NCBI GenBank assembly: GCA_944391685.1
Contig: CALXUM010000002.1
Coordinates: 62,001-126,000 of the forward strand
DNA length: 64,000 bases
Direction of reading: 5' to 3'
Source: an uncultured Alphaproteobacteria bacterium
GTDB lineage: Bacteria; Pseudomonadota; Alphaproteobacteria; RF32; CAG-239
A program made the translations under genes and the position numbers. The notes beneath the pieces are model-generated. The model did not search any database. It was not told the origin of the DNA and saw only the letters and a program-made list of their open reading frames with translations. Below are positions 3,832 to 45,272 of the stretch, piece after piece. Within the stretch, counting starts at the first letter, position 1, and each line of letters opens with the position of its first letter.

Positions 3832-5583
3832 TTAATGGTTTTTCAACAGTGGCCATTTTCCGTTTGCCACCTCATTTAGAGTATTATTCTCCAAATTAAA
3901 CCTGATATTATAAATCCAATAATTGGCGGTGACTCGTTCAATATAAATTCTGGTTTCCGCTGAGGGAATAGCCTCAATAAACATCAACGGATCATCTTTA
4001 TATTTTGTTTTTTTCTGCCATTTAACCAAATTACCGGGGCCGGCGTTATAAGCAGTTATCATATAAAAAAGATTTCCCTCAATAAACGGCTTGCCTAACA
4101 GATATTCAATATATTTCTGCCCCAGCTCCAAATTATAATCAGCTCGCAGCAGTCGGCTTTTATCCCTCTTATCTCTGATATCTTTGGTGATGTGATAAGC
4201 AGTATTAGGCATCAGCTGCATCAGGCCATGAGCTCCTGCCGGACTTTTGGCATCAACTTTAAATGCCGATTCCTGCCTGACCATTCCCAAAACCAAAGCT
4301 TTATCAACTTTCCAGCCGCTTTTGGGGAACCAAACCGGAATTGGGTAGGCAAAGCTGTCATATTTATTTTGCGGAGCTGACTTTTTGTTTTGATTAATGG
4401 CGTAAATAACCAGCGAGTGCATTTGATATTGATTAGCCATAAAAATAACCGCCTCTTTTTGCTTATCGTTCATTTGCTCATAACCGTAACGCAACTCCTG
4501 CTCCGCCAATTTTTTCTGTTTGGCGTTAATTAAGATAATTGCTCTCCTGATATAAGGCGATGCAAGCAGTTCATAAACATATTCACCGGAACCGAAGTCA
4601 TTCAAATAAGCTTTGGCCTCCCAGTTATAATCAGGCTTTAGGCCTAATTTTTTGGCAGCCAAAATTCCATAAAACGTGTGCATATATTTGGCGGCATAAG
4701 TCAGCATTTGCCTTGCTTTGGCTTTATCTCCCAGTTTCATATAAGCTCTGTAAGCCCAATACCCGCCGGCAGCCACCAACCATTTATCAGAATTTGATGA
4801 CTTGCCCAATCTTGAAAAATATAATGCCGAGCTTTTATAATCTCCCAAACGCCAAGCTGACAACCCTGCCACCCATGCCGCTGTCCCTGAAGTTCTTCTG
4901 CGTGCGGCTTTAGTTGCCCACTGCCAGGCCAACTTATCATAATTGTCAACAAAATATTTTTGAGCAAGTTTGGCTGCCATATCGTCCCAATATTTATCAG
5001 GGGCTAACTTCCTAAACTTTTTCTGTTCCAAAATCAAACGTGCCCGTTTGGTCTTGCCCTGATTAATATAGCGTCTGAACTTTGCCACCTCTTTTTGCAA
5101 ATAAAGCTGATTTGCTTTGCTTAATTTAGCAATATCTTTATTATCCCAACCATAAATCAACGGAGGATCAAACTGAGAAGAAAATAACTCTTTAGCTTGT
5201 TTTTTATCTTTGCGAAGAGCTAACCTATATAATCTCTTGGCCTGCGGATGATCGGCATAATTTTGCAACCAGTCTTTAAGCTCGGCAAAGGAAGTTTTGT
5301 AATCTTTATGCAAATATTTTTCAGCCAAAACATTGCCTAAGAGAATGTTGTTTTCAAGCTTTTTTTGCAACTTTTCAGCTTTTGCAAAATCGCCGTCTTT
5401 GATTTCATTGAAAATACGCTCATAAAGCCTGACATCACTTCGGCTAACCAACAAATAATCAAGTATTTTATTATAAGATGAAGAGTTAATAACTTTGGGC
5501 AGATTTTCGGCAGCCAAGCAACTACTGCCCCAGCCTAACAATAATACCAATATTGCCAGTAGTTTTCTCAACTTTAGGCTCAC
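3832..5583 (-). CDS. slt: soluble lytic murein transglycosylase
   Basis: Lytic transglycosylases cleave the MurNAc-GlcNAc bond of peptidoglycan in the periplasm and leave 1,6-anhydroMurNAc ends. The 583-residue protein starts with a signal peptide ending near CLAAE. A long superhelical region like the Slt70 U-domain follows (about residues 30-400). The GEWL-like catalytic domain (about 430-560) has the catalytic Glu in VRQESAF, then GAHGLMQLMPNTA and ITAYNAGPGN. The length fits the Slt family. The start ATG overlaps by 4 bp the stop of the upstream secreted-protein gene, so translation is likely coupled. This places it as the last gene of a three-gene operon. Confidence 0.93.
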   Translation of the reverse strand: MSLKLRKLLAILVLLLGWGSSCLAAENLPKVINSSSYNKILDYLLVSRSDVRLYERIFNEIKDGDFAKAEKLQKKLENNILLGNVLAEKYLHKDYKTSFAELKDWLQNYADHPQAKRLYRLALRKDKKQAKELFSSQFDPPLIYGWDNKDIAKLSKANQLYLQKEVAKFRRYINQGKTKRARLILEQKKFRKLAPDKYWDDMAAKLAQKYFVDNYDKLAWQWATKAARRRTSGTAAWVAGLSAWRLGDYKSSALYFSRLGKSSNSDKWLVAAGGYWAYRAYMKLGDKAKARQMLTYAAKYMHTFYGILAAKKLGLKPDYNWEAKAYLNDFGSGEYVYELLASPYIRRAIILINAKQKKLAEQELRYGYEQMNDKQKEAVIFMANQYQMHSLVIYAINQNKKSAPQNKYDSFAYPIPVWFPKSGWKVDKALVLGMVRQESAFKVDAKSPAGAHGLMQLMPNTAYHITKDIRDKRDKSRLLRADYNLELGQKYIEYLLGKPFIEGNLFYMITAYNAGPGNLVKWQKKTKYKDDPLMFIEAIPSAETRIYIERVTANYWIYNIRFNLENNTLNEVANGKWPLLKNH

Positions 5584-44762: not shown

Positions 44763-45215
44763 GCCCGCCTGAGGTTGGTAGTGAACCTACTTATCTCGTA
44801 GGTTCAAATCTGGCCGCGCCATATAAAAATAAAAAAGGCCAACCTAGTGGTTAGCCTTTTTTCTTTTTGGTTGCGGGGGCAGGATTTACTAAAGTTGCCT
44901 CTACACCTCTGAGCCAAGGCTCACCGGCGTTCTCACGCCCGCCTGAGGTTTGTAGTGAACCTACTTATCTCGTAGGTTCAAATCTGGCCGCGCCATATAA
45001 AAATAAAAAAGGCCAACCTAGTGGTTAGCCTTTTTTCTTTTTGGTTGCGGGGGCAGGATTTACTAAAGTTGCCTCTACACCTCTGAGCCAAGGCTCACCG
45101 GCGTTCTCACGCCCGCCTGAGGTTTGTAGTGAACCTACTTATCTCGTAGGTTCAAATCTGGCCGCGCCATACAAAAATAAAAAAGGCCGTCATTAAAAGA
45201 CGGCTTTTATATTTT
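44763..45215. repeat. 174-bp tandem repeat with initiator-tRNA 3'-end fragments
   Basis: Two full units (44763-44936 and 44937-45110) and most of a third (from 45111) repeat with a period of exactly 174. Each holds: a hairpin GAACCTAC-TTATCTC-GTAGGTTC (first copy 44783-44805), a CCGCGCCA end, a terminator-like hairpin, then on the minus strand AAATCCTGCCCCCGCAACCA (44868-44887, 45042-45061). That 20-mer equals the 3' end usual for alphaproteobacterial initiator tRNA. The third unit's hairpin has diverged, and its tRNA part continues into the longer fragment at 45216-45272. No gene is seen in this stretch. Confidence 0.9.
44831..44866. terminator. terminator-like hairpin in repeat unit 1
   Basis: AAAAAAGGCCAACC and GGTTAGCCTTTTTT form a stem with flanking A- and T-runs. 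The same element recurs at 45005-45040. In the third unit (45180-45209) the stem is replaced by AAAAGGCCGTC/GACGGCTTTT, so the structure but not the sequence is kept. Confidence 0.65.
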
Positions 45216-45272
45216 TGGTTGCGGGGGGAGGATTTGAACCTCCGACCTTCAGGTTATGAGCCTGACGAGCTA
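45216..45272 (-). pseudogene. truncated initiator tRNA (fMet, CAU): phage attachment-site remnant
   Basis: On the minus strand the 57 nt read as the 3' three-quarters of an initiator tRNA: D-stem end TAGCTC, anticodon arm TCAGG-CTCATAA-CCTGA, T arm GGAGG-TTCAAAT-CCTCC, acceptor CCCCGCA and encoded ACCA. The 5' acceptor and D-arm halves are missing; upstream sequence is A-rich and unrelated. A 3' tRNA piece beside phage genes is the hallmark of tRNA-directed integration. The intact tRNA should lie at the far prophage end, outside the window. Confidence 0.8.

Follow-up and report, generated by a model that had tools for sequence, protein, structure and literature searches.

The sequence analysed here (the window) is a stretch of 64,000 nt from an uncultured alphaproteobacterium, G000:C2:62001-126000, in a genome of 1.57 Mb. 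It should be noted that all genomes in our sample are drafts except that of E. coli, and that most are metagenome-derived. Between 44763 and 45272 of the window lies an array that, read along the minus strand, begins with a truncated initiator tRNA gene (tRNA-iMet, 45272-45216) and continues with a terminator, unit A, a terminator, unit B, a terminator and the partial unit C. Tandem Repeats Finder reports a period of 174 and 2.4 copies at 44763-45188 with 99% matches and a score of 838, by a wide margin the top tandem repeat of the window; the repeat is real and far above chance. A separate repeat search matched 44763-44936 with 44937-45110 at 99%, and a third in-register stretch at 68%. The original prediction, made from the sequence of the window, described three units at a spacing of 174; two full copies exist, but the third is a terminator followed by the truncated tRNA and not a full copy. 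The 20-mer that it placed on the minus strand at 44868 and 45042 is indeed there, as are the terminator-like hairpins and the 8-bp hairpin GAACCTAC/GTAGGTTC, followed by CCGCGCCA.

The interval between tRNA-iMet and unit A is occupied by a terminator usable on either strand (45186-45208). Unit A, like all the units on the minus strand, starts with an inverted copy of the tRNA T-arm (45144-45169) in which the part T5* (45146-45153) is preserved and the acceptor part has diverged. Next comes the T-arm 5' half in direct orientation (GTAGGTTCA, 45130-45138), which forms an 8-bp hairpin with T5*. A conserved structured core then occupies the position of the T-loop (45062-45129); it is included in alignment A1 and in the covariation test described below, and is matched by our model of the units with an E value of 7.6e-16. 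The unit closes with 20 nt copied from the 3' end of tRNA-iMet (AAATCCTGCCCCCGCAACCA, 45042-45061), with the same letters as an intact tRNA-iMet on another contig, C16. Beyond a second terminator (45005-45036), unit B (44868-44995) is 99% identical to unit A, with the same model E value (7.6e-16) and the same order of parts: inverted block 44970-44995, 5' half of the T-arm 44956-44964, core 44888-44955 and tRNA 3'-end copy 44868-44887. A third terminator lies 3' of unit B (44831-44862), and unit C (44763-44821) ends inside its core at 44763. On both strands the units fold far better than shuffled sequences (z -4.8 and -4.9). When the array and 20 related loci were searched with Rfam at the curated cut-offs, only tRNAs were matched. 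MicX and other low-scoring Rfam matches proved to be terminators, and a derivation from tmRNA was discarded, the units having no match to alpha_tmRNA (RF01849) and the tmRNA of this genome lying at C8:9591.

The truncated tRNA at 45216-45272 (minus strand) scores 32.2 bits against the Rfam tRNA model. All of its 57 nt recur without change in the intact tRNA-Met(cat) at G000:C2:154541, and the identity stops sharply at both ends, with no extra matching base. Approximately 47.3 kb separate the two, and the genes in the interval include those for a CI-like repressor, RecT, an exonuclease, a primase, an endolysin and a tyrosine integrase, the last adjoining the intact gene. The identical 57 nt at both ends, with prophage genes between them, identify 45216-45272 as attL, the 3' part of a tRNA-iMet whose 5' side was removed by the prophage, and the far copy as attR. 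The predicted role of the fragment, as an attachment site in an initiator tRNA, is thus borne out (57/57 matches), and the intact gene for which the prediction proposed a search is at the other end of the prophage, with the integrase alongside. At the end of contig C16 lies another intact tRNA-iMet, which has the same terminator as the window array (identical to 45186-45208) and is followed by no unit. The sequence common to the two loci runs from the terminator through TATGGC, and they diverge just inside the inverted block of unit A, which places the unit border at the TGG of the inverted tRNA copy. Since the genome has this second intact gene, the remark that initiator tRNA is a rarer integration target because it is essential carries little weight. 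Contigs C2 and C16 each end 47 nt past the tRNA-iMet match, in the same sequence, so that the two genes must have a common 5' flank, which broke the assembly. Towards the integrase end the prophage also encodes an RVT_1 reverse transcriptase (L362 626-1666; G000:C2 149125-150165), possibly part of a diversity-generating retroelement.

Units of this kind share one build. In the direction of the tRNA, the order is terminator, inverted T-arm copy, purine-rich spacer, 5' half of the T-arm, core, 3' half of the T-arm with acceptor strand and CCA, and terminator; the core, of 68-85 nt, sits in the position of the T-loop. The ends of a unit follow the local tRNA. The 3' end agrees with its own tRNA at a mean of 87% and with other types at 56%; the own tRNA outscores all others in 72 of 85 copies. 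The last four positions of the inverted copy follow the tRNA in 94-99% of cases, against 31-69% for shuffled partners, and the T5*:T5 stem reaches at least 7 bp in 72/85 copies (7/85 when shuffled); the part of the inverted copy that faces the acceptor strand has drifted to chance level. In G012, some units (L108, L129) have an extra structured insert of approximately 80 nt within the core.

The core shows strong compensatory change. Helices were picked by eye on a MAFFT alignment of 44 diverse copies, so that counts are biased towards those helices, a bias on which the slid and shuffled controls bear: double-changed cells in the named helices number 126, against 44 in shuffled data and 13-29 in the slid controls. 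The corresponding covariation score is 0.281, against 0.102 (shuffled) and 0.027-0.084 (slid partners). Part of the double changes come from the T-stem and are inherited from the tRNA; the core helices alone have double changes at 13 pairs. In the stem enclosing the core, 28 copies have G.A next to A.G at two adjacent positions where 15-16 have standard pairs, and the second hairpin makes the same exchange between Watson-Crick and tandem G.A/A.G pairs. Most copies cap the first hairpin with a GNRA-like loop, whose closing C-G pair is invariant.

The original prediction proposed a search for the 174-bp unit elsewhere in the host genome and a comparison with related genomes lacking the prophage; the same kind of unit is present in most genomes of the genus. 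A core motif was found in 26/35 of these, with a reversed-motif control near zero, and the model of the units extends the family to 31/35, at 0-20 copies each. Outside the genus, model matches were obtained in one further genus of the family and in three more families of the class. An independent motif scan of 84,980 species genomes placed almost all matches in gut alphaproteobacteria akin to the host; four loci (Xanthobacteraceae, Byssovorax, Actinomadura) were discarded as chance matches. No match appeared in 397 other sampled genomes of the phylum (E 0.001, strict filters), and the case for a spread outside the alphaproteobacteria therefore comes from RtT, an RNA of E. coli considered below. 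Among 143 motif matches, which include a few chance ones, 106 have a tRNA on the same strand within 1 kb upstream, with 23 anticodons represented. The usual distance from tRNA to motif is 73-88 nt, and others lie one or two units beyond; several copies with no tRNA are at contig ends. Units recur at approximately 150-215 nt, and they stand behind tRNAs for about a dozen amino acids (among them Ser, Arg, Lys, Pro, Trp, Gly, Met, Glu, Val, Ala, Asn, Gln, Leu). The units are a large, previously unrecognized family of structured repeats behind many bacterial tRNA genes. Our search of the literature on RtT and on repeats behind tRNA genes, which covered few of the older papers, found little.

Most of the arrays have neither a prophage alongside nor a cargo gene, and clustering of the ORFs around all copies revealed no recurrent mobility gene, only the usual neighbours of a tRNA type or scattered unrelated proteins. 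Two loci contain genes. In one (L232, CASFTO010000010.1, 1748-3425), a MunI-type restriction-modification set, comprising an MT-A70 methyltransferase, an HTH controller and a MunI-family endonuclease, is flanked by two units behind tRNA-Pro(tgg). In the other, which belongs to the genome of the window (L127 853-1485; G000:C9 about 4152-4784), the gene for a 210-aa protein with no confident Pfam match separates tRNA-Trp from its unit, which consequently lies approximately 1 kb from the tRNA. Other alphaproteobacterial families have diverged units of the same build, in L285 (family f69, tRNA-Glu), where they are in tandem, and in L286 (family f40, tRNA-Pro).

Orthologous sites differ in whether they have a unit. 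Behind rpmB, a tRNA-Arg(ccg) gene could be followed in 29 genomes; a unit is present in about ten, and others have none. At least five of the 29 have in this slot a different core, of approximately 203-208 nt, with inverted and direct T-arm copies. This second core type (TTCTCAGGCATCTAAATTCG...) was seen in L341, L347, L354 and L356, together with an inverted tRNA 3' end that is almost complete, and L342 has both types side by side behind tRNA-Arg(ccg). A comparison anchored on dsbD yielded no unit-free sites, because its tRNA neighbour is not conserved. Cores group by tRNA type (56 changes, against 82 when shuffled) as well as by genome (96 against 121), and cores within 12% of each other account for 16.7% of pairs from the same genome and different tRNA types, against 1.7% of pairs from different genomes and different types. 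We take this to mean that cores are inherited in place and are also exchanged or moved between tRNA loci; transposition and gene conversion both fit the clustering data.

One alternative is that the unit is itself mobile but non-autonomous: it would insert at the T-loop of tRNA 3' ends, be moved in trans (e.g. by a reverse transcriptase or recombinase) and adopt the ends of each new target. Evidence for this includes the nearly fixed position of insertion, the similarity of cores across tRNA types within a genome, the 0-20 copies per genome, the filled and unit-free tRNA-Arg(ccg) sites with a second core in the same slot, and the unit-free tRNA-iMet paralogue with its sharp boundary at TGG. 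However, no mobility gene is recurrently linked to the units, no transposition event was seen directly and gene conversion among old copies also gives similarity of cores within a genome, and we regard this explanation as possible but somewhat unlikely. A broader proposal, to which we give slightly less credence, is that RtT itself belongs to a widespread class of mobile structured RNAs in the T-loop niche of tRNA 3' ends, which would rewrite their own ends according to each tRNA, perhaps via RNA copied back into DNA. Alternatively, selection might act on a single-stranded DNA structure that serves as a recombination site, similar to attC or REP, the genes in two arrays being its cargo. The MunI-type set between the tRNA-Pro units and the 210-aa gene between tRNA-Trp and its unit could be read in this way. 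Cargo is absent from most arrays, however, the loops of the first hairpin are mostly GNRA with an invariant C-G closing pair, and RtT, which has the same build, is an annotated RNA; the proposal is improbable.

It was originally suggested that the 174-bp repeat arose by sequential integration and excision of elements at tRNA-iMet, or by tandem duplication of an old attachment site. A true attachment site does adjoin the array, and the repeat does contain tRNA 3' ends. An identical att core at both prophage ends, a restored tRNA and an adjacent integrase, the marks of a prophage attachment site, are nevertheless found for 45216-45272 only and not for the 174-bp units. Kindred units stand behind tRNAs for about a dozen amino acids, mostly with no prophage and with no recurrent mobile-element gene, their ends match their own tRNA, and the structured, covarying core that they have in common has no counterpart in the attachment site of an integrase. 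Prophage-free arrays with the same core contradict such an origin, which we consider very unlikely for the repeat: the prophage entered later, splitting the array from tRNA-iMet, and did not make it. That the units are decoys diverting integrating elements from the tRNA gene is scarcely credible either, for although each ends in a tRNA 3' end, the usual target of integrases, the prophage here used the true tRNA and not a decoy, and integration at an attachment site restores the tRNA in any case.

In our judgement the array is probably two complete units and one partial unit of RtT-like tRNA-tail repeats, a new and much larger branch of a known kind; we extend this judgement to the explanation as a whole, including the steps that follow. 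What is seen directly is how the units are built, that their structure covaries, that each copy matches its own tRNA and that many tRNA types have them; one orthologous tRNA has a unit in some genomes and not in others, and RtT has the same build. Read-through of the tRNA terminator would give a tailed transcript, and cutting after each CCA would release one small RNA per unit; by analogy with the annotated ends of E. coli RttR, the units are probably excised as RNA from such read-through transcripts. New copies would arise by local duplication, and cores may pass between tRNA loci by gene conversion or transposition. At the present locus, entry of the tyrosine-integrase prophage into tRNA-iMet would have carried the promoter-bearing tRNA approximately 47 kb away, so that the window array is probably no longer transcribed from it; units A and B are currently unattached to any intact tRNA. 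Against this explanation we count the terminator between tRNA and unit, the scores below the Rfam cut-off for RtT in all 35 genomes, the part that tRNA-derived ends may play in the score shared with RtT, and the separation of the window units from an intact tRNA.

The many relatives behind many tRNA types offer a comparative basis for RtT, a little-understood RNA: the core is conserved, the ends follow the tRNA, sister species differ in copy number (0 to 20), and filled as well as unit-free sites exist in nature. Direct tests of the role of RtT-type RNAs, and of how a sequence that always matches its host tRNA spreads, are now feasible. The locus is also a warning: the mere repetition of tRNA 3' ends does not point to old prophages.

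The closest known system is RtT (RF00391), described from a single tRNA operon in enterobacteria; the older literature links it to the stringent response. E. coli K-12 has four RtT matches at tyrT/tyrV. Our model, built from alphaproteobacterial units with no RtT sequence in it, found exactly these four copies at tyrT/tyrV, at 22.8-24.9 bits; the next match scored 5.1 and the tRNA-Tyr genes 4.8, and a 50-kb control region of K-12, containing seven other tRNAs, gave no more than 10.4 bits. In the reverse direction, the Rfam RtT model reached its curated gathering cut-off of 45 bits in none of 35 genus genomes (best 27.2), with E. coli recovered as a control; at least 14 of its 20 best matches in the genus, all below threshold, coincide with units. 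The sequences of the RtT and unit cores are alike in part only. With the core alone, one RtT copy scores above shuffles (1 and 0 of 300) and another does not (42 and 92 of 300); tRNA-derived ends may contribute much of the common score. The proposal that units are cut out as RNAs starts from the annotation of RttR, whose end falls at the CCA of the first tRNA copy.

The traits of RtT recur in the units: an exact or near-exact local tRNA 3' end including CCA, a T-arm half, an inverted T-arm, tandem units of similar length and tandem G.A pairs in the core, the last being a motif described in RtT (PMC7657543). Like the units, the tyrT repeats are in tandem (178 bp) behind a tRNA. Each has the first half of the T-arm and, joined to it at the T-loop, a GC-rich structured core that is followed by AATCC... 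to the tRNA CCA; the T-arm also occurs inverted, as GAACCTTCGACTAAGGTTCGA in the repeat that lies between tyrT and tyrV. The G.A motif is tandem in both, and the models match both ways. RtT as catalogued is bound to tRNA-Tyr, whereas the tRNA type of the units varies and their ends vary with it; the units also differ in the extra GGCG...CGCC hairpin of the core, in scoring below the Rfam cut-off and in the intrinsic terminators between them, in contrast to tyrT, where none is known between the tRNA and the repeat. Prophage attachment sites in tRNA genes are likewise direct repeats of the tRNA 3' end, to which the units add a conserved core and an inverted T-arm copy, and the units occur where there is no prophage. 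REP/BIME elements and integron attC sites are also short, structured and repeated, some in arrays with genes between copies; unlike these, the units, with which no linked transposase or integrase was found, are tied and matched to tRNA genes.
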